Part shown: piece by piece, positions 42,008-51,587 of the stretch
How the letters are laid out: each line of letters opens with the position of its first letter
Position numbering within the stretch: position 1 is the first letter of the stretch
Assembly (NCBI GenBank): GCA_014610835.1
Contig: QQXM01000022.1
Coordinates: 1 to 63,890 of the forward strand
Reading direction: 5' to 3'
Source: Erysipelotrichaceae bacterium 7770_A6
GTDB lineage: Bacteria; Bacillota_I; Bacilli_A; Erysipelotrichales; Erysipelotrichaceae
DNA: 63,890 nucleotides
The notes under the pieces: generated by a model
What the model was told of the DNA's origin: nothing
The model's input: only the letters and a program-made list of their open reading frames with translations
The model's database searches: none
Position numbers and translations under genes: made by a program

Positions 42008-42883
42008 TTATTCAATTGGTTTTAAATAGAATCCACCGTAGAAGTTCTCAGTTTTCATAACATTCACAATTACATGTGGATCAACACTACGCATCAAAGC
42101 AACAATATCACTCACTTCATAGCTGCTGACAACTGTATGAAGCAAAGAAATCTTCTTACTAGAATAACCACCAATGCCATCTACACGGCTCAACCCATGA
42201 CGATAGTTTTTCACAAGAGCACTAATAACTTCATCTGGTTTTGCAGTAGTAATCTGCAGCGTAACACGCGCATAGCGATTATAGAAAGTATCAATTGTTT
42301 TTGTTGAGATGAACTGGAAGAGAATAGAATATCCAGCATCTTCCCAGCCAAACATCATTCCAAATATCATCAATAATATTGCATTGAATATAAATACATA
42401 GCTGAAGATTGATTTATTTTTTTTATTACTGATGTACAATGCAACAAAGTCAGTTCCACCTGTTGATGCATTTGCCTTTAATGCAATGACTGTCATCAAT
42501 CCATATAAAAGTCCACCAAAAATAATATTTAATAATCGATCATCAAATACTGCTCCAAAGTGTAATACTTTCAAGAAAAATGATGCTAAGGCAACTTGCA
42601 GCAATGAGAAAAAAGTAAATCTTTTACTAATGCTTTTACTGCAGAATAAAGCAACTGGAATATTCAAAGCCAACATACCTAATGATGTTGAAAATGTAAA
42701 TCCAAAGAAAGTACTAGTAATTTTCTCAATCAAGATTGCTACACCAGTAAAACCTGAACTCAGTAGATTTAAAGGTCTCATGAAAATCTGAATGATTGCA
42801 GCCTGCATAAATCCTGCCAATATCACCGCAAATAACGTCACCAGATTTCTAAATTCCTTATACTGATTCAGTTCTTTTAACAT
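42008..42883 (-). CDS. YitT-family membrane protein
   Basis: A 291-residue protein with five to six membrane helices (DUF161) and a C-terminal soluble DUF2179 domain (from about 215, DEVISALVKNYRHGLSRVDGIGGYS). Family function is unknown; PII-like folding of the C-terminal domain suggests ligand sensing. It is the last gene of the long cluster and overlaps cutC by 7 bp. Confidence 0.85.
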   Translation of the reverse strand: MLKELNQYKEFRNLVTLFAVILAGFMQAAIIQIFMRPLNLLSSGFTGVAILIEKITSTFFGFTFSTSLGMLALNIPVALFCSKSISKRFTFFSLLQVALASFFLKVLHFGAVFDDRLLNIIFGGLLYGLMTVIALKANASTGGTDFVALYISNKKNKSIFSYVFIFNAILLMIFGMMFGWEDAGYSILFQFISTKTIDTFYNRYARVTLQITTAKPDEVISALVKNYRHGLSRVDGIGGYSSKKISLLHTVVSSYEVSDIVALMRSVDPHVIVNVMKTENFYGGFYLKPIE

Positions 42884-43620
42884 ACGCTATTCACAATCTT
42901 TCTAACAAGTTCTTCACTAACAACATCATAGTCATTTTCATGTGGTGCAGCAGCATAACAATAATTCACATCCTCACCACTCGTTGTTGGATCATTTCTC
43001 CAGCTCTTGCATGAACTATGTACTTGAGAAATGTCTGTTTTTTCCATCATTTCAAGTGCATTGGAAGCATTCATACCACTACCCGCAAGAATCTGGATCT
43101 TGTCACCATACTTTTTTTGCAAATGTGCAATCATGTCAATACCATCCATTGCTTTTGCTTTTAAACCACTTGTCAATACACGATCTACGTGTAAGGAAAT
43201 CAATGTTTCCATTGCTTCATCTGCATTCTTTACACAGTCAAATGCACGATGGAATACAACTTCACCATTGTATTCTTGAATAATGTCGATGATCTGCTTT
43301 GTCTGTTCGACATCAATTTCACCATCTTTTGTTAAACATCCAAAAGCAATACCATCTGCGCCATTTTCCATCATCAAACGAGTATCACATAACATTGTTT
43401 CAAACTCTTCATCTGTATAGCAGAAGCCAGCACCACGTGGTCGAACCATTGTAATGACTTTTAAATTTGTATTCTTCTTTGTCAAAATCAAAGAAGCAAG
43501 AGATGGTGTTAAACCACCCAGATATAAAGCACTGTTTAATTCGATTCTAGATGCACCGCCTCTTTCACTTGCCAAAGCGTCATCATAAGAACCGCAACAA
43601 ACTTCAATCATTCTTTCCAT
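42877..43620 (-). CDS. cutC: CutC-family protein
   Basis: A 247-residue TIM-barrel protein of the CutC family: EVCCGSYDDALASERGGASR at the N-terminus, MVRPRGAGFCYTD near 58, FHRAFDC near 123 and ILAGSGMNA near 175. The name comes from copper homeostasis in E. coli but the link is weak, and the biochemical role is unknown. It belongs to the long PTS/peptidase cluster, 38 bp after the dipeptidase gene. Confidence 0.88.
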   Translation of the reverse strand: MERMIEVCCGSYDDALASERGGASRIELNSALYLGGLTPSLASLILTKKNTNLKVITMVRPRGAGFCYTDEEFETMLCDTRLMMENGADGIAFGCLTKDGEIDVEQTKQIIDIIQEYNGEVVFHRAFDCVKNADEAMETLISLHVDRVLTSGLKAKAMDGIDMIAHLQKKYGDKIQILAGSGMNASNALEMMEKTDISQVHSSCKSWRNDPTTSGEDVNYCYAAAPHENDYDVVSEELVRKIVNSVC

Positions 43621-43658: not shown

Positions 43659-44774
43659 TTATAATCCCTGCATCAATTCATATAATGCATACGCATAAAT
43701 CTGTGTATTCTTTTCAATATCACAAATACGCATCCATTCATTTGGAAGATGTCCAATGCCCTTCTGTCCCTTAAAGCTAGGACCAAATGGAACGATATTC
43801 TTTACAACCTTGGCATATGTACCGCCAGTTGTCGTTACAGCACTTCCATCTTCATCCATAATCGTTTCATATGCTTTTTCTAATGATTTCACTAAATATG
43901 TATCTTTAGGGAAATATACTGGATCAATATTGTTAAGAAGCTTCACCTTTAAATGTTCGCTCTCTAATTTTTTCAAAGCAGTTTCCATTTCTTCTAAGCT
44001 ATATCCAGCAGGATAACTAGAAACCAGGCTTACACCAACTTGATCCTCATCATGCATCAATTCCACCTTACGAACCTGATTCTTGCCAAATTCTTCATTG
44101 CTGTAATCAACACCAAGACTGATTGATAAATCACTCTGATTTAAAATAAACTGATTCATGAATGTAAATAATTCATCGATATGTTCTTTTTCTGTTGTAT
44201 AAGCAAATTCAGCTCTGCCACGTTCTGCATACACAACAGGATACTTACAGTCAGGTGTCCATCCCATCAAAGGATATTTATGGTCTTTGAAATACCATTT
44301 CATATCTTCCATACCAGTTTCTTCATTTGTACCGAAGATAATCTTTACTTTGATTGGGAATTCATAATTTAGATCTTTTAAAGTCTTCAAAGCATACAGG
44401 CAGCTGAAGATTGGCCCTTTATTATCAAGAACACCTCTTGCATAAAGATAACCATCAATTTCCGTTGTATGGAATGGATCTGTTTTCCATGTTCCATTAA
44501 TATCAACAACATCTAAATGCCCAACACACGCAATATAGTCTTCTGTATCAGGTCCATAAGAAACAATACCAACCTGATTCTCAACATTTTCAACTTCAAA
44601 TCCAAGAGCAGAAGCAAGCTCTAAAGCTTTATTCAAACAATCAACAACTCTTGTACCAAATGGACAGTCTTCTGTTGCGGTGTCTCTTCTAGAATCATAA
44701 TTACATATTGTTTTAATATCTGTAATCAATGATGGAAGATTCTCAGCAACCTTCGCAATAATCTTATCTTTCAT
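43659..44774 (-). CDS. Sapep-type Mn-dependent dipeptidase (M20)
   Basis: A 371-residue M20 peptidase close to Sapep/PepV. Metal motifs are complete: CVGHLDVV, GVLDNKGP, FGTNEETGMED, TPDCKYPVVYAERG and a late His in GIGHLPNEW. The usual Sapep length is about 450, so the lid domain is compact. It cleaves dipeptides in the cytoplasm. Its ATG overlaps the stop of the glycosylasparaginase gene (TAATG), so the two are translationally linked. Confidence 0.85.
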   Translation of the reverse strand: MKDKIIAKVAENLPSLITDIKTICNYDSRRDTATEDCPFGTRVVDCLNKALELASALGFEVENVENQVGIVSYGPDTEDYIACVGHLDVVDINGTWKTDPFHTTEIDGYLYARGVLDNKGPIFSCLYALKTLKDLNYEFPIKVKIIFGTNEETGMEDMKWYFKDHKYPLMGWTPDCKYPVVYAERGRAEFAYTTEKEHIDELFTFMNQFILNQSDLSISLGVDYSNEEFGKNQVRKVELMHDEDQVGVSLVSSYPAGYSLEEMETALKKLESEHLKVKLLNNIDPVYFPKDTYLVKSLEKAYETIMDEDGSAVTTTGGTYAKVVKNIVPFGPSFKGQKGIGHLPNEWMRICDIEKNTQIYAYALYELMQGL

Positions 44775-45736
44775 TATTCTTCAACTGGTGCCATTCTTAC
44801 ACGCATATATTCATCAAGCCATTCTTTGCTTGCTACTTCAAATGTGCAATGTCCATCTCCTTGACGTGTAACAAGATAAACTGTAGGTTCTACATCACTT
44901 GTCGCAACGGAGAAAGAGAATCCATCGATATTTGTAGCACATCCAAATTCCCCCTTGTTGTTCATCGCAACAACAGATAAATCACCCGCAACTGTTCTTC
45001 TCTTCTTCAGACTTGCATCTAAGTCATTCACTGCCTTTTCACAAGCTTCTTGTGGAGTTAAACCTTCCTTCATTAAACGAACGATTTCATAAGAAATGCA
45101 TCCCTTCATCAAGTCTTCACCTAAACCAGTAGCAGTTGCACCACCAACTTCACTATCTGCATAGAAACCAGAACCAACAAATGGAGAGTCACCAACACGG
45201 CCTGGCTTCTTCATAAACAAGCCACTTGTAGAAGTACCCGCAACAACTGTACCATTCTCATCAAGACAAACCATACCTACAGTATCATGTCCATCATATG
45301 GCTTTAATTCCTGTGCCTGCTGTTCCAATTCCTTCTTCTTTTTACGATAGAAAGCTTTTGCACGATCTGTTAACATTTCTTTTTCTTCAAAGTGATGTTC
45401 ACGTGCATACTTCTCAGCACCATAGCTGACAAGAATATTATTTACTTTTTCTTCACTTAATTTTTTAGCGATACTGATTGGATTTGCAAAATCTTTGATT
45501 GCACAGATAGCACCTACATCAAATGTATCACCATCCATATATCCAGCATCCAATTCAACAACCTGATCTTCATTTGGAAGACCACCATATCCTACAGATT
45601 TATAGTACGGGAAATCTTCAACAGCTTTAATTGCTGTTTCGATTGCATCAGATGCTTTTCCATTCTGATTTAACTGTTCAAATCCTTGTTCAATACCTTC
45701 CTTAGCCATACGCCAAGTCGCAATAATTCCATGCAT
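44774..45736 (-). CDS. N4-(beta-N-acetylglucosaminyl)-L-asparaginase (glycosylasparaginase)
   Basis: An N-terminal-nucleophile hydrolase of 320 residues. It self-cleaves before Thr in the motif HDTVGMV (near 157), and GRVGDSPFVGSGFYAD plus GGATATGLGED follow as in known glycosylasparaginases. The enzyme splits GlcNAc-Asn, the stub of N-glycans, into aspartate and an amino-sugar. Plain asparaginase or isoaspartyl peptidase activity is the alternative. It lies in a PTS operon near nagA, which supports the glycan role. Confidence 0.85.
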   Translation of the reverse strand: MHGIIATWRMAKEGIEQGFEQLNQNGKASDAIETAIKAVEDFPYYKSVGYGGLPNEDQVVELDAGYMDGDTFDVGAICAIKDFANPISIAKKLSEEKVNNILVSYGAEKYAREHHFEEKEMLTDRAKAFYRKKKKELEQQAQELKPYDGHDTVGMVCLDENGTVVAGTSTSGLFMKKPGRVGDSPFVGSGFYADSEVGGATATGLGEDLMKGCISYEIVRLMKEGLTPQEACEKAVNDLDASLKKRRTVAGDLSVVAMNNKGEFGCATNIDGFSFSVATSDVEPTVYLVTRQGDGHCTFEVASKEWLDEYMRVRMAPVEE

Positions 45737-45749
45737 AATTTATATCTCC

Positions 45750-46814
45750 TTATTTCATCGATACTTGATCGAATATTTCACTGTTGATTTCTTCAACCAG
45801 CTTCGTTAATAATATAATACAATTCTCAACATCTTTCATGCTGATCATGCTTGAATTTGTATGCATATAACGAATTGGAATCGATAATGTCATGTTAATA
45901 ACACCTGCATTTGTTTTATGAATATTTCCAGAATCTGTACCACCCTTATTAAATACAGCGTACTGATGCTGAATGTCATATTTCTTACAGATATCTTCTA
46001 CATACGCAACAAGTTTTCTAGGTGCAATCGAGTTAGAATCAATCATACTCAATACCACTCCATCCCCTAAACGACAGATATTTGAATCCAGTGGTGTATC
46101 TCCCGCAAGTGTTGTATCAATCGCAAAACAGATATCTGGTCTAACACAATCCGTTGCTGTACGTGCACCCCTCAATCCTGGTTCTTCCTGTACTGTATTG
46201 GCAAGATACAAAGGTGTATGTTTTTTATTTTCTAATGCCTTTGCAACTTCAATCATGATATATGTACCAACTCTATCATCAAATGCTTTATTGACGACAC
46301 GATCTGTATGATTCATGATCTGGAAGTGAGGCATTGGAACAACCATATTTCCTTCTTCAATCCCTAAATCAACAAGCTGCTGTTTATTTTCTACGCCCAT
46401 ATCTAGATACAACTCAGAAATATCCATTGTCTTGCTTCTAAGATCTTGTGGTAAGCCATGTGTAGCTCTACTGCCCATCAATCCATAGAACTGTTCTCCA
46501 TTGCGATTAACAACTTTAAACCATTGTCCAGGAAGCATATGGCTCCACCATGATCCAATCGGCTGAAGTCTGATAAATCCTTGATCATCAATGGATTTGA
46601 TCATAAATCCAACTTCATCCATATGTGCCGCAATCATCACTTTAGGACCATTTTCATCTGCACACTTTTCACCAACAACACTGCCAATTCCATCTTGATA
46701 ATATTTAAGATTTAATTTCTGATACTCAGATTTCACAATGTTACTGACTTCATCTTCATATCCACTGATACCAGCCACACTGCTGATTTTATCTAATAAT
46801 TCTAGATTAGACAT
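45750..46814 (-). CDS. M42-family aminopeptidase (catalytically complete)
   Basis: A 354-residue M42 peptidase (glutamyl aminopeptidase/TET type). All expected ligands are visible: His and Asp in AAHMDEVGFM, Asp in AFDDRVGTY, Glu pair in VQEEPGLRGA, Asp in IDTTLAGD and His in IRYMHT. M42 enzymes assemble as dodecamers and trim short peptides. ATG 46814 has GGAG 6 bases upstream; it overlaps the end of the preceding, inactive-looking paralogue. Confidence 0.9.
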   Translation of the reverse strand: MSNLELLDKISSVAGISGYEDEVSNIVKSEYQKLNLKYYQDGIGSVVGEKCADENGPKVMIAAHMDEVGFMIKSIDDQGFIRLQPIGSWWSHMLPGQWFKVVNRNGEQFYGLMGSRATHGLPQDLRSKTMDISELYLDMGVENKQQLVDLGIEEGNMVVPMPHFQIMNHTDRVVNKAFDDRVGTYIMIEVAKALENKKHTPLYLANTVQEEPGLRGARTATDCVRPDICFAIDTTLAGDTPLDSNICRLGDGVVLSMIDSNSIAPRKLVAYVEDICKKYDIQHQYAVFNKGGTDSGNIHKTNAGVINMTLSIPIRYMHTNSSMISMKDVENCIILLTKLVEEINSEIFDQVSMK

Positions 46815-47829
46815 GATGTTCTCCAAATCCAAAGTCAGTAATCATTTCATTATTTAAATGAAGAATATAGTCTGTTAATGTATGTACAAGTGCATCAATA
46901 TCATTGATTGCAACCATTTCATTTGCACTGCCAGTATTTCCACATGCAATGCCTACAGCTACTGTTGGGCAGCCTTTCACTGTTTTATGGATAAAAGAAC
47001 TATCATTTCCAATCATTCCAAAGTATCCATTCGCACTTGTGAATCCCTTGAAATCATTGATTAATCTTTTGCTAGGAATCATACCTTTATCATACATTCC
47101 AACAACAACGCCACCATTCAATTTTGCATTTGGCTTTCCATTATCAAACACGCACAATGCCAATGCTGCATCTGGCTGAATTGTATATGTTGCTGTCTTT
47201 GTTCCACGGAAACCAATTGTTGATTGACTCATTGCACCAATTGCTAAATTGAAATCTAATTCATGTTCTTTTAAGTTTTCAACAACTTCCATACATACTT
47301 CATTTAGTACTCTAGGATTCAAAGCCTTTGCATACACTATATTATTTTCAACAAAGAAATTAGAAGCATAGCTTACTAAATCACCAGGCAATACCTTAAG
47401 ATCAGCCTTATCTGTATATCCACAGTCAATCACAAGATCATGAATACTCTTTGCTTCACTTCCACCTTCTAGAACATTTTTTCGGTTAGTAATCACACCT
47501 GTGATCATAGAATGATCGCGGCATAAAATTGTTACCCTCTGGTGTAGTAAAGAAGATACCGCAATATCTTCCAATGTAATAAATGTGAGTGTACCATCAT
47601 CATTCACTTTAGATACCATCATTCCACATTCATCCATTGGACAGGCAATCATAAATATTTTTGCATTTTCATGCTTGCTCTTTTTGTAAGCAAAAATACT
47701 GCCTAAATTATCTCTAACAATTTGATCAGCATTTTCTGCAAATGCTGGCTTCATGATTTCAGCTACATCCTGTTCATTGGAACTAACACCAAAGCAGTTG
47801 CATAACGTTGTTAATCTATCTAAATTCAT
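46807..47829 (-). CDS. M42-family pseudopeptidase (metal ligands lost)
   Basis: A 340-residue protein with the M42 fold but no catalytic set. Aligned by eye to the next gene: AAHMDEVGFM is ACPMDECGMM (His to Pro), FDDRVG is LNPRVL, QEEPGLRG is QSTIGFRG (both Glu lost), the Asp of AIDTT is Cys and the His of YMHT is Gly. The frame is intact with AAGGAG before ATG 47829. It may form a mixed complex with the active M42 enzyme or bind peptides. Confidence 0.8.
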   Translation of the reverse strand: MNLDRLTTLCNCFGVSSNEQDVAEIMKPAFAENADQIVRDNLGSIFAYKKSKHENAKIFMIACPMDECGMMVSKVNDDGTLTFITLEDIAVSSLLHQRVTILCRDHSMITGVITNRKNVLEGGSEAKSIHDLVIDCGYTDKADLKVLPGDLVSYASNFFVENNIVYAKALNPRVLNEVCMEVVENLKEHELDFNLAIGAMSQSTIGFRGTKTATYTIQPDAALALCVFDNGKPNAKLNGGVVVGMYDKGMIPSKRLINDFKGFTSANGYFGMIGNDSSFIHKTVKGCPTVAVGIACGNTGSANEMVAINDIDALVHTLTDYILHLNNEMITDFGFGEHHV

Positions 47830-47850
47830 TTTATCTCCTTCGAAAATAAA

Positions 47851-47881: not shown

Positions 47882-48406
47882 TTAATAACAAACTTTAGTT
47901 TTAATTTCTGCTAAGTCACCGCTGTTATTAACGCTTGCCTGCATTAATGAACATAAGTTTGCAATACTATCATTTAAGCCCGTTCCGCCCTTTTTTGGCA
48001 TAACTACAATTGGAGTTTTGTCTTTGTATTCAGCGATTACATCGCTTACTTCTTTACTCATCATCGCACATGATTGAACGGATGTGTGTGTTAAGATACT
48101 TGCACTGATTTCAGCAGCCATCTTTCCATAGTCAGCATACTGGAAGCATGGTCCGCACAATACGAAGTCCGGATTTAGCTTCTTGACCATAGCTGTCATC
48201 TTAGTAACGACTTCTTGTTCGTTTGCTAAGAAATATTCATTACCACAATATAATGTAGCGACTACCTGTGCATCAATCTTATTGAAGTGTGGCTGTAAAG
48301 AGGATGCGAATCCAATTCCGCCCTTTGTTGCTGTTAATCCGACATTTGGATTTGTTTTTCCACCGGCTCCAGCTAAGCCCTGGTCAAATATCAATATTAC
48401 TTTCAT
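47882..48406 (-). CDS. GrdB-like protein (glycine/betaine reductase component B family, N-terminal part)
   Basis: A 174-residue protein resembling the N-terminal region of GrdB-type reductase subunits: the pattern VVATLYCGNEYFLANEQE then FVLCGPCFQYADYGKMAAEI. Full GrdB subunits are about 430 residues with a selenocysteine; here the gene is short, with no in-frame TGA. A reductase role is therefore unlikely, perhaps a binding subunit. It lies between the EIIC and M42 genes. Confidence 0.6.
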   Translation of the reverse strand: MKVILIFDQGLAGAGGKTNPNVGLTATKGGIGFASSLQPHFNKIDAQVVATLYCGNEYFLANEQEVVTKMTAMVKKLNPDFVLCGPCFQYADYGKMAAEISASILTHTSVQSCAMMSKEVSDVIAEYKDKTPIVVMPKKGGTGLNDSIANLCSLMQASVNNSGDLAEIKTKVCY

Positions 48407-48416
48407 ATCTTTTCAC

Positions 48417-49769
48417 TTAGTCTAAGCTTAAATCATCGAATGATAGATCATCTAATTCGTCTGTCTGATTCTTTGTTTCAGATTCTTCAGATAAATACTT
48501 AGAATCAAGCATACGGAAGAATGGATAGTAGATAGCGAAGTCCATTGCTAACATAACAATCTGTACAACAGATCCCATGAAGCTTCCTGTTACTAACCAG
48601 CCAGAGAATACGATTGGAGTTGTCCAAGGCAGCTGTGCACCATTTGTAATTGGCATGATGTGTGTAACTGTAGCAATATAACCAAGAATTGTATTTGCAA
48701 CAGGTGTCAGGATGAATGGAATCGCCATCAATGGGTTTAATACGATTGGTAAACCAAAGATGATTGGTTCGTTAATACCGAAGATACCAGCTGGAAGAGA
48801 AAGTTTTCCAAGAGTCTTCAAACGACTTGACTTTGCGAAGAAAGCCATCATGATAACGAGTGCTAATGTGGATCCACCACCACCGAAGTTACAGAAGAAA
48901 TCTGAGAATCCGGAAGTGAAGATGTTTGTCATTTCAAGACCAGCCTTAGCTGCTTCGTAGTTTTCAACAGTTAATACCTTGTGGATAGGAGCGAAGATTG
49001 TGTTTGTAACTGCTGGACCGTTGATACCGAAGAACCAGAATAATGTGGATAAGAACTGATAGATAACTTCAAATCCACCTAAACGGCCTAAACCAACAAG
49101 TGGTGCCTGTAATACCTGATAAATGAAGTAATGAGCATATTCGAAAGATGTGAAAGAGAAAACAATACCTAATAAGAAGAATACGATCATTGTAATTCCT
49201 GCAGGAATTAATGCTGCGAAAGATTCCATAACTGCTGGTGGAACACCATCAGGAAGCTTGATTACAAGATTCTTCTTCATTGCCCATGAGAAGATTTCTA
49301 CTGCGACAATCGCTGTAATCATTGCTAAGAACATACCAGCTGTTCCTAGGAATGTGAACTTGAATCCGCTAACTTTAATTGCTTCAGAAAGACCTTCAGC
49401 TTCAACCATTGAATACTGAGGTGTGATAATCAAGAAGGATACTAATGCAACAACTGCACCAGCAATTCTGTTTTCTAAACCCTTTTCTCTAGAATAGCAG
49501 TAACCAATACTGAGTACGCCTAATAAAGCAACACAGTCAAATGAGATTGCTGTTACGCGACCAAGATATCCATCCCAGCCAGCACCGAAAATACCAGCCA
49601 TGAATTCTTCATATCCCGCAATTGGGAAGTTAGAAATAAGTAAGAAGATTGAACCAACAATTGTAATTGGTACTGTAATTAAGAAACCATCTCTGATTGC
49701 TGACAATACTTTATTCTTTGACAAAACATTGGCAACAGGCATCAGAAATTTTTCTAGTTTTTCCATCAT
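48417..49769 (-). CDS. PTS EIIC, lactose/cellobiose/chitobiose family
   Basis: A 450-residue membrane subunit with about 10 helices. Family marks include KLPDGVPPAVMESFAALIPA, FGINGPAVTNTIFAPI and FGINEPIIFGLPIVLNP. With EIIB (49773) and EIIA (50726) it makes a complete transporter. The sequence class covers cellobiose, lactose and chitobiose; the operon context (glycosylasparaginase, peptidases) suggests an amino-sugar or glycoamino-acid substrate. Confidence 0.9.
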   Translation of the reverse strand: MMEKLEKFLMPVANVLSKNKVLSAIRDGFLITVPITIVGSIFLLISNFPIAGYEEFMAGIFGAGWDGYLGRVTAISFDCVALLGVLSIGYCYSREKGLENRIAGAVVALVSFLIITPQYSMVEAEGLSEAIKVSGFKFTFLGTAGMFLAMITAIVAVEIFSWAMKKNLVIKLPDGVPPAVMESFAALIPAGITMIVFFLLGIVFSFTSFEYAHYFIYQVLQAPLVGLGRLGGFEVIYQFLSTLFWFFGINGPAVTNTIFAPIHKVLTVENYEAAKAGLEMTNIFTSGFSDFFCNFGGGGSTLALVIMMAFFAKSSRLKTLGKLSLPAGIFGINEPIIFGLPIVLNPLMAIPFILTPVANTILGYIATVTHIMPITNGAQLPWTTPIVFSGWLVTGSFMGSVVQIVMLAMDFAIYYPFFRMLDSKYLSEESETKNQTDELDDLSFDDLSLD

Positions 49770-49772
49770 AAT

Positions 49773-50096
49773 TTATTTTGCCCCCTTTTCCTTGTAGAGT
49801 TTGAGAGCTCTCTTAAGAACTCTTTCTCCATCGACGTTTCCGTAATCAACGCTGTCAATTACTTCAACGATGTGTTCTGCACCATATCTTTCGTTTACTT
49901 TTTCATACAAATGCTTAACCTGAGGTCCCAATAGAATAACTTCTGGATTGTATTCATGAACTACTGTGTCCATGTTAGAATCTGAGAAAGCCTTGATTTC
50001 AATTGGTAAGCTGTGTGCGTCAGCTACTTTTTGCATTCTGCTTGCCAGTAAACTTGTAGACATGCCTGCATTACAGAATAAATAAAATCTTTTCAT
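49773..50096 (-). CDS. PTS EIIB, lactose/cellobiose family
   Basis: A 107-residue EIIB with the phospho-Cys in FYLFCNAGMSTSLLASRM at residues 3-20. It hands phosphate from EIIA to the incoming sugar on EIIC, 3 bp downstream. The ATG at 50096 fits the family start; the open frame reaches 50129. A TTTCCTA/TAGGAA site lies 66 bp upstream, so a second transcript may begin here. Confidence 0.9.
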   Translation of the reverse strand: MKRFYLFCNAGMSTSLLASRMQKVADAHSLPIEIKAFSDSNMDTVVHEYNPEVILLGPQVKHLYEKVNERYGAEHIVEVIDSVDYGNVDGERVLKRALKLYKEKGAK

Positions 50097-50161
50097 AATA
50101 GTATTACCTAACCTTTCTGCATATATCATAAATTTTCAGAAGTACTTGTTTTCACAATCTA

Positions 50162-50209: not shown

Positions 50210-50722
50210 CTATGCTGCTAAATCAATGACTTTTGTTTGAAAAATCAAGTCATGTAATAAGCGGAAATCTCTCCATTTCAATAAAATAAACCCTAGATCC
50301 AATGCAGATAATACATTGATCAATAATGTGAAGAGCTTCCATGCTTCATTTGGATACATGATCATCAATACACTTCGAATGTTTACAGATGGAATATAAA
50401 ATGCACCACCAATCAATAAACATCCAACAAAGAAACGCAGAAATGTTCTTGGAAATGAAATTTCATTTTCATGGATATCCACTGTCTTTAAATGCATTGC
50501 ACGCATCATGAGTGTCTGTCCTTTCCATACTTTCAATGGAACAAGAACATAATAGAGAAATGCAACCAGCAATGAAGCAATTGCCAATGCAATATGCACA
50601 GAATATTCACCACTTGTAAAATGACCAATTGCATTTGTCATCAAATTAATAAGGACAGCTGAAATATACCAGTCTGTCCCAAAGGCGAACACTCTTCTTA
50701 CAACGTAAGCAAAAGTTTTCAT
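50210..50722 (-). CDS. RDD-family membrane protein
   Basis: A 170-residue protein with about four membrane helices; the RDD signature appears as RRVFAFGTDWYISAVLI near 8-24. It lies between the EIIA and EIIB genes. Function of RDD proteins is unknown, but three copies in this window accompany lactose/cellobiose-type EIIC genes, so a role with this transporter class is suspected. Confidence 0.8.
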   Translation of the reverse strand: MKTFAYVVRRVFAFGTDWYISAVLINLMTNAIGHFTSGEYSVHIALAIASLLVAFLYYVLVPLKVWKGQTLMMRAMHLKTVDIHENEISFPRTFLRFFVGCLLIGGAFYIPSVNIRSVLMIMYPNEAWKLFTLLINVLSALDLGFILLKWRDFRLLHDLIFQTKVIDLAA

Positions 50723-50725
50723 ATT

Positions 50726-51031
50726 TTATTTATTTTTATATAAGTTGATCAATTTTGTAGCTAAAAGCTTTGTTGTTTCTGCAGCCATCAACTGGTCTTC
50801 AGCATGCATCAAAAGTAATACAACTTCAACTTTTTCACCGCTAGCTTCCTGCTGAATCAAAGAAGCATGTACCTGGTGTCCTCTTGTGTAGCAAGCATCA
50901 CCTTCTGCAATCAATTCTTCTGCACGTTCGAAGTTACCCTTTTCAGCTTCTTCGATTGCCAGGATATAATCACTCTTAGCTTCTCCTACTGCAGAAATAA
51001 TCTTAAAACAAACTAATTCCATATCTTCCAT
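50726..51031 (-). CDS. PTS EIIA, lactose/cellobiose family
   Basis: A 101-residue all-helical EIIA; the phosphorylated His is in LLLMHAEDQLM near 75 and the Asp at 79 is the usual metal ligand of the trimer. It takes phosphate from HPr and gives it to EIIB. GGAGG lies just before its ATG. It is flanked on both sides by RDD genes. Confidence 0.93.
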   Translation of the reverse strand: MEDMELVCFKIISAVGEAKSDYILAIEEAEKGNFERAEELIAEGDACYTRGHQVHASLIQQEASGEKVEVVLLLMHAEDQLMAAETTKLLATKLINLYKNK

Positions 51032-51044
51032 AACATATCCTCCT

Positions 51045-51587
51045 TTACTTTTCTATTACCATGCTATGTGCAATACTATCGTGAATGGCTGTACCTTTTT
51101 TCACTACCATATAACAGGAAATGATCAAAATAGCCACTTTCACCCAATTCAATACCGTTCCAGCTACATCAAACGTGTACATCGTTATCATCTGCGTTAC
51201 ATAATTTCCCGCAAGCATCAATGGACTCTCTAAAAGCAGCAAGCCAACAATCTGTCTTTTTGCTAGATCTTTTGCATTCAACGCTTCACCATTTTCATCT
51301 GTAATTTTTAGTGATAAGAATTTCTTGCCAAGCGTCTGCCCTTCAAACTTCAAAGGAATTACGTAATAATAAACAATCCCAAATAAGATTCCCAATACAC
51401 CAGCCAGCAAACCATATGGCTTTTCAAATAACAGAATATCTGTATTGATTGTCTTTTCTCTTGTCAGAACATTCCACAGCCATCCAACTGGGATTGCCGC
51501 AAATACCCATCCAAAATACCAGTCAATCAGAAATGCGAAGATTCTTTTGTTTAATGGTGCTTTTTTTATTACTTTTCTTTTTGCCAT
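51045..51587 (-). CDS. RDD-family membrane protein
   Basis: A 180-residue membrane protein with a clear RDD signature, NKRIFAFLIDWYFGWVFA near 13-30, and GQTLGKKFLSLKITDENGE near 85. It is the first gene after the PRD activator (8 bp gap). The second RDD gene, 2 genes on, is more diverged; they need not be direct duplicates. Confidence 0.85.
   Translation of the reverse strand: MAKRKVIKKAPLNKRIFAFLIDWYFGWVFAAIPVGWLWNVLTREKTINTDILLFEKPYGLLAGVLGILFGIVYYYVIPLKFEGQTLGKKFLSLKITDENGEALNAKDLAKRQIVGLLLLESPLMLAGNYVTQMITMYTFDVAGTVLNWVKVAILIISCYMVVKKGTAIHDSIAHSMVIEK

Follow-up and report, generated by a model that had tools for sequence, protein, structure and literature searches.

Why would a bacterium keep a full-length M42 aminopeptidase gene whose catalytic residues have been replaced, directly beside an active-type paralogue? 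The question is raised by two adjacent genes, M42-1 and M42-2, in a 63,890-nt stretch of DNA from Erysipelotrichaceae bacterium 7770_A6 (contig QQXM01000022.1), which was analyzed whole and is called the window here. The first-pass annotation had described M42-1 as a pseudopeptidase encoded next to an active paralogue and had proposed a role for it in a mixed complex.

46807..47829, minus strand: M42-1, pseudo-aminopeptidase, 340 aa (ORF, Pfam, BLASTP, site alignment and AlphaFold2 model)
47834..47839, minus strand: ribosome-binding site AGGAGA of M42-1 (GAAGGAGATAAAATG), 4 nt 5' of the ATG
45750..46814, minus strand: M42-2, active-type M42 aminopeptidase, 354 aa from the ATG at 46814, all ligands and the loop His present
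46807..46814, minus strand: 8-nt overlap of M42-1 and M42-2, the ATG of M42-2 lying within the last codons of M42-1

M42-1 and its former active site

The M42-1 reading frame starts with the ATG at 47829, its stop codon ends at 46807, and its 340 codons contain no internal stop; the full-length frame, the good ribosome site and the overlap with M42-2 were all as first described. Both proteins matched the Pfam M42 family, with E-values of 1.6e-39 for M42-1 and 3.5e-91 for M42-2. M42-1 scored 136 bits against PF05343 (cut-off 23.2), its residues 43-315 covering positions 1-290 of the 292 in the profile, and the domain search detected no DNA-binding domain or other added domain in it. The two proteins were 26-27% identical (BLASTP, 26% over 347 columns, E=9e-27). 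AlphaFold2 models built from 12-sequence alignments had pLDDT values of 87.9 for M42-1 and 84.8 for M42-2. The M42-1 model had the whole M42 fold with a TM of about 0.9 to dodecameric TETs; it matched TET 5ds0 with a Z of 42.9 and an rmsd of 1.9 over 330 residues and 1y0r with a Z of 40.1, and its Foldseek matches included 9a5r, the B. subtilis YtoP-YsdC complex. M42-1 therefore shares its whole fold and length with the M42 TETs PhTET1-3, TmPep1050, S. pneumoniae PepA and B. subtilis YsdC (Z 38-43, TM 0.82-0.91), but unlike them it is without all the metal ligands, the general base and the loop His, while the Asp of the HxD motif is kept.

In PhTET2 the metal ligands are H68, D182, E213, D235 and H323 and the general base is E212 (PMC8993905, PMC3511314). 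M42-2 kept all of these, with H64, D179, E211, D233 and H318 as ligands and E210 as the base. When M42-1 was aligned to the PhTET2 sites, the five ligand positions H, D, E, D and H were occupied by P, N, T, C and G and the general-base position by Ser in place of Glu, so that across the six catalytic positions the series H, D, E, E, D, H has become P, N, S, T, C, G. D66, the Asp of the HxD motif, was still present. The first-pass annotation had counted five ligands and two catalytic Glu as replaced; the ligands were correct, but one of the two Glu is itself a ligand, and six positions, not seven, have been lost. Judged by these residues, M42-1 is an M42 protein by descent and fold but no catalytic M42 aminopeptidase.

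Conservation and origin of the dead gene

The first 60 relatives contained one orthologue, in G002, which was 41% identical, shared the losses and had the same neighbour gene. When 316 genomes of the order were searched with a profile, eleven dead members emerged, M42-1 of the window included, and two more distant ones (G186 and G189) were recognised within the same operon. A contig scan returned only four dead loci, each the counterpart of one already known, the relatives being Solobacterium and Erysipelotrichaceae assemblies. When the profile was run on 395 genomes of the class, scores dropped from 447 bits for known dead members to 253 bits for an active one with nothing between, matches below this gap being judged by score and not residue by residue. 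The dead orthologues belonged to 13 species with seven genus codes (g1, g18, g37, g39, g53, g61 and g75), and in all 13 the dead gene lay directly 5' of an active-type M42 gene, which was frameshifted in G186. The first-pass annotation had pointed to conservation of the pair with the same losses in other genomes as a check on its proposal, and the 13 species, with full-length frames and no decay, bear this out.

Comparisons of close species gave the dead gene a dN/dS of 0.06-0.14 and its active partner one of 0.05-0.07, some dS values being near saturation. These low values indicated that the dead gene is under strong purifying selection, which in genus g53 is somewhat weaker than on the partner. 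It is hardly credible that the gene is a decaying duplicate. In one genus its amino-acid sequence did change faster than the partner's (identities of 77-80% and 88%), but decay is contradicted by the purifying selection and by intact orthologues, full length and free of stops, in 13 species.

In every one of the 12 dead/active pairs whose partner is intact, the genes overlapped by 8 or 11 nt (three of these junctions were read by eye), whereas five active/active junctions had gaps of 12-48 nt. Gene overlap favours coupled translation, an established form of bacterial gene organisation, and its recurrence at 8 or 11 nt points to coupled translation and matched amounts of the dead and the active protein. 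In G186 the active partner was split by a single frameshift (L083, about 7560) next to an intact dead gene, which may be a sequencing error or a real loss.

The same kind of losses in 13 species indicated that those of M42-1 were no chance event. The general base, the adjoining Glu ligand, the first His and the bridging Asp were gone in 13/13 orthologues; the last His was kept by G315 only and the third carboxylate by G186 and G189 only. The old ligand positions drifted among P/N/S/A at H64, N/Y/Q/A/S at D179, C/T/N/D at D233, and G, rarely H or D, at H318. An alignment error was considered as the source of the losses and rejected, since in all 13 species the same columns are affected between conserved flanks, and every M42-2 retains the residues. 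The first-pass annotation had also allowed for metal ligands at other positions; these were looked for in the dead clade, and no new conserved His, Cys, Asp or Glu was present in the old site. The remaining D66, E67, D276 and H281 were invariant in the active partners too.

Ser203, at the former general-base position, was invariant in 13/13 dead orthologues (the next position being T or V), as were Ser278 and Phe279 beside the old pocket, and the pocket-wall motifs QS(T/V)IGxRGTxTA and GNDGSFIHK ranked among the most conserved of the clade. This conservation could mean that the dead protein is still an enzyme with metal-free chemistry, for example through Ser203 with His281 and Asp276, both of which are invariant. 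We regard this as very improbable, because the active partners show the same invariance of Asp276 and His281, which thus need no new role, and because the old ligand positions drift freely, unlike a new active site. The invariant residues and motifs, together with the intact fold of the model, would also suit a dead protein that acts alone, its remodelled and metal-free pocket binding a peptide, an amino acid or a sugar-amino acid, so that it serves the operon as a scavenger or regulator with no contact to M42-2. This appears unlikely, although it is the alternative to which we give most weight: such a protein would not need M42-2, yet the dead gene was never found without it; the conserved frame overlap suggests matched amounts; and there is no DNA-binding or added domain.

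In a maximum-likelihood tree of 75 M42 proteins the dead proteins formed one branch with support of 100/100, requiring one change. Closest to it came active M42s that are unpaired, along with the first genes of active/active tandem pairs (G071, G085, G140, G203, G204, G218 and G244), the tree giving no order among them. The partners of the dead genes formed a clade with the second genes of active/active pairs (100/98). Since active first genes of similar tandem pairs are among the relatives of the dead clade, it was probably in an already existing pair that catalysis was lost. Most simply, the tandem pair predates the loss, as the shared operon also suggests, and the loss of the metal site would be a single event, most simply placed within that pair. 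Two first M42 genes of otherwise active pairs, in G140 (D182 to Q; L078 1890-2957) and G244 (H323 to Q; L162 404-1474), both draft genomes, lacked one ligand each, possibly through independent early losses. The family thereby offers a series from unpaired active through paired active and partly damaged to fully dead.

As far as their sequences tell, then, the dead M42 is conserved, selected, without a metal site and genetically inseparable from its active paralogue in the genomes examined. The reading of M42-1 as a pseudopeptidase and conserved partner draws its support from phylogeny, from purifying selection, from the adjacency found in every case and from the presence of the pair as all or none.

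Proposed assembly with the active partner

We somewhat favour the reading that M42-1 is the catalytically dead genetic partner of the adjacent M42-2 and co-assembles with it as a non-catalytic subunit of a shared particle. The dead M42 would join the active enzyme most likely as dead:dead homodimers placed with active:active homodimers in one TET-like particle, as in PhTET2 and PhTET3, and the dead subunits would shape the chamber or substrate access. Among the points against this reading, the dead gene is intact in G186 where the partner is frameshifted, and many relatives have the operon without either M42.

The first-pass annotation had noted that mixed M42 dodecamers are known, and this is correct for PhTET2 and PhTET3, two M42 paralogues that were reconstituted in vitro into one heterododecamer built from homodimers, according to the accessible part of that report (PMC4220976). 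We propose such an association of two M42 paralogues for the pair here; unlike in our case, no dead subunit is reported there, and the same part of the paper describes no overlapping gene pair (PMC4220976). The B. subtilis M42 paralogues YtoP and YsdC were crosslinked in cells (PMC10090944, PDB 9a5r), and they resemble the present pair as paralogues, but no dead subunit is described there, the two cases being compared by description (PMC10090944). Published mixed M42 complexes make a mixed particle with a dead subunit plausible, and by this analogy M42-1 could, as first suggested, have a structural or substrate-selecting role in a dodecamer that mixes both proteins.

The loop His (H123 of PhTET2) bears on how such a particle might be arranged. 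It is reported to lie near the active site of the adjacent subunit, at a position common but not universal in M42 (PMC8993905). The residue was absent in 13/13 dead proteins and present in 12/12 partners. Among active/active pairs it was present in 6/6 second genes and missing from 7/7 first genes, and it was found in the unpaired relatives G309, G223, G194 and G138. Since only the active side retains the His, a dead:active heterodimer would strip the live site of it. This weakly favours active:active homodimers, which would share a particle with dead:dead homodimers or form particles of their own; the argument is a weak one because the published loop position varies. TET assembly is reported to be metal-dependent (PMC4220976), which presents a difficulty for incorporating a subunit without ligands. 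A more specific account, which we consider possible but doubtful, is a hetero-TET containing entire dimers that never bind metal, its chamber, pores or specificity being set by the dead subunits; it would have evolved stepwise inside an active-active pair, by loss of the loop His, then of single ligands, then of the whole site, the genes becoming overlapped.

Dead subunits are well known in other peptidase families, such as M16. The M16B heterodimers reviewed in PMC12731061 (alpha/beta-MPP, TTHA1264/TTHA1265 and SPH2681/SPH2682) resemble the present pair in combining a metallopeptidase with a homologue without the metal motif (MPP) and, in bacteria, in being encoded by neighbouring genes. They differ from M42 in their unrelated fold and family, the substrate being enclosed by two clam-shell halves and not by a tetrahedral chamber. 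In the literature searched, which left out most subscription papers, we found no M42 pseudopeptidase described and no dead-subunit case for the tetrahedral M42 peptidases. The pair offers a simple two-gene system in which to study the contribution of an inactive subunit to a peptidase cage and the function of TET-type peptidases in bacteria.

The operon around the M42 pair

The following genes surround the pair in the window.

47882..48406, minus strand: GrdB-related protein without selenocysteine, NF041545 (226 bits, cut-off 175)
48417..49769, minus strand: PTS EIIC, lactose/cellobiose family (domain match)
49773..50099, minus strand: PTS EIIB, lactose/cellobiose family (domain match)
50726..51031, minus strand: PTS EIIA, lactose/cellobiose family
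44774..45736, minus strand: N-terminal-nucleophile hydrolase ('asparaginase 2'), closest to glycosylasparaginase (1p4k, 2.4e-55, against 1.7e-34 for the best isoaspartyl peptidase)
43659..44774, minus strand: M20 dipeptidase, PepV/Sapep type (family match)
42877..43620, minus strand: CutC family protein (domain and family match)

Across genomes the operon comprised PTS EIIB and EIIC and the GrdB-like NF041545 gene, usually with glycosylasparaginase-like, PepV-like and CutC genes. It was accompanied by the M42 pair in all 13 genomes with a dead/active pair, as well as in G071, G085, G140, G218 and G244 (the second gene of G244 being cut by the contig end). Both M42 genes were absent from the operons of G050, G051, G092, G106, G184, G185, G187, G188, G192, G208, G219, G261 and G262 and from the second operon of G140. 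No operon with only one M42 gene was detected among those compared; the operons of G209 and G238 were cut by contig ends. G203 and G204 kept an active M42 pair elsewhere, and G218 had a further GrdB-like gene, in other surroundings and without M42s.

The dead protein might instead partner the GrdB-like protein or a PTS component. In most operons the GrdB-like gene was the one immediately 5' of the dead gene, and its tree distances correlated with those of the dead gene about as well (r=0.894) as did those of M42-2 (r=0.905). We judge such a partnership improbable, because many operons contain the GrdB-like gene and the PTS without any M42 and because the active pair of G203 and G204 sits away from the GrdB-like gene. 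The correlation of tree distances was unusable as proof of interaction, as the PTS and GrdB-like genes correlated equally well.

The glycosylasparaginase-like enzyme with the adjoining PTS and PepV-like dipeptidase suggests use of N-glycan-core glycopeptides. We infer that the operon imports and degrades a glycosylated amino acid or peptide, and that its use would be extended to longer peptides by the M42 pair; with M42-1 and M42-2 in one particle, the pair would trim peptides or glycopeptides delivered by this operon. This would give the M42 pair a part in how Erysipelotrichaceae use host-type glycopeptides. In the accessible part of PMC6960285, the fucosyl-GlcNAc-Asn pathway of the L. casei alf-2 cluster involves the glycosylasparaginase AsnA2, and PepV was tested and found dispensable. 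As here, a glycosylasparaginase and PepV are studied together for a host-derived glycoamino acid, but the alf-2 cluster has the AlfH permease and a fucosidase where the present operon has a PTS and no fucosidase, and in that part no M42 pair or GrdB-like protein was seen (PMC6960285).

The GrdB-like gene (47882-48406) was the constant core of the PTS operon, whether the M42 pair was there or not. In two g53 genomes a DUF7916 gene (L071 7690-8649) was inserted between it and the dead M42, and the same operon also contained a MupG-like 6-phosphomuramidase gene. At 50210-51587 of the window two RDD-family membrane proteins flanked the PTS EIIA gene, an arrangement that recurred in L071.
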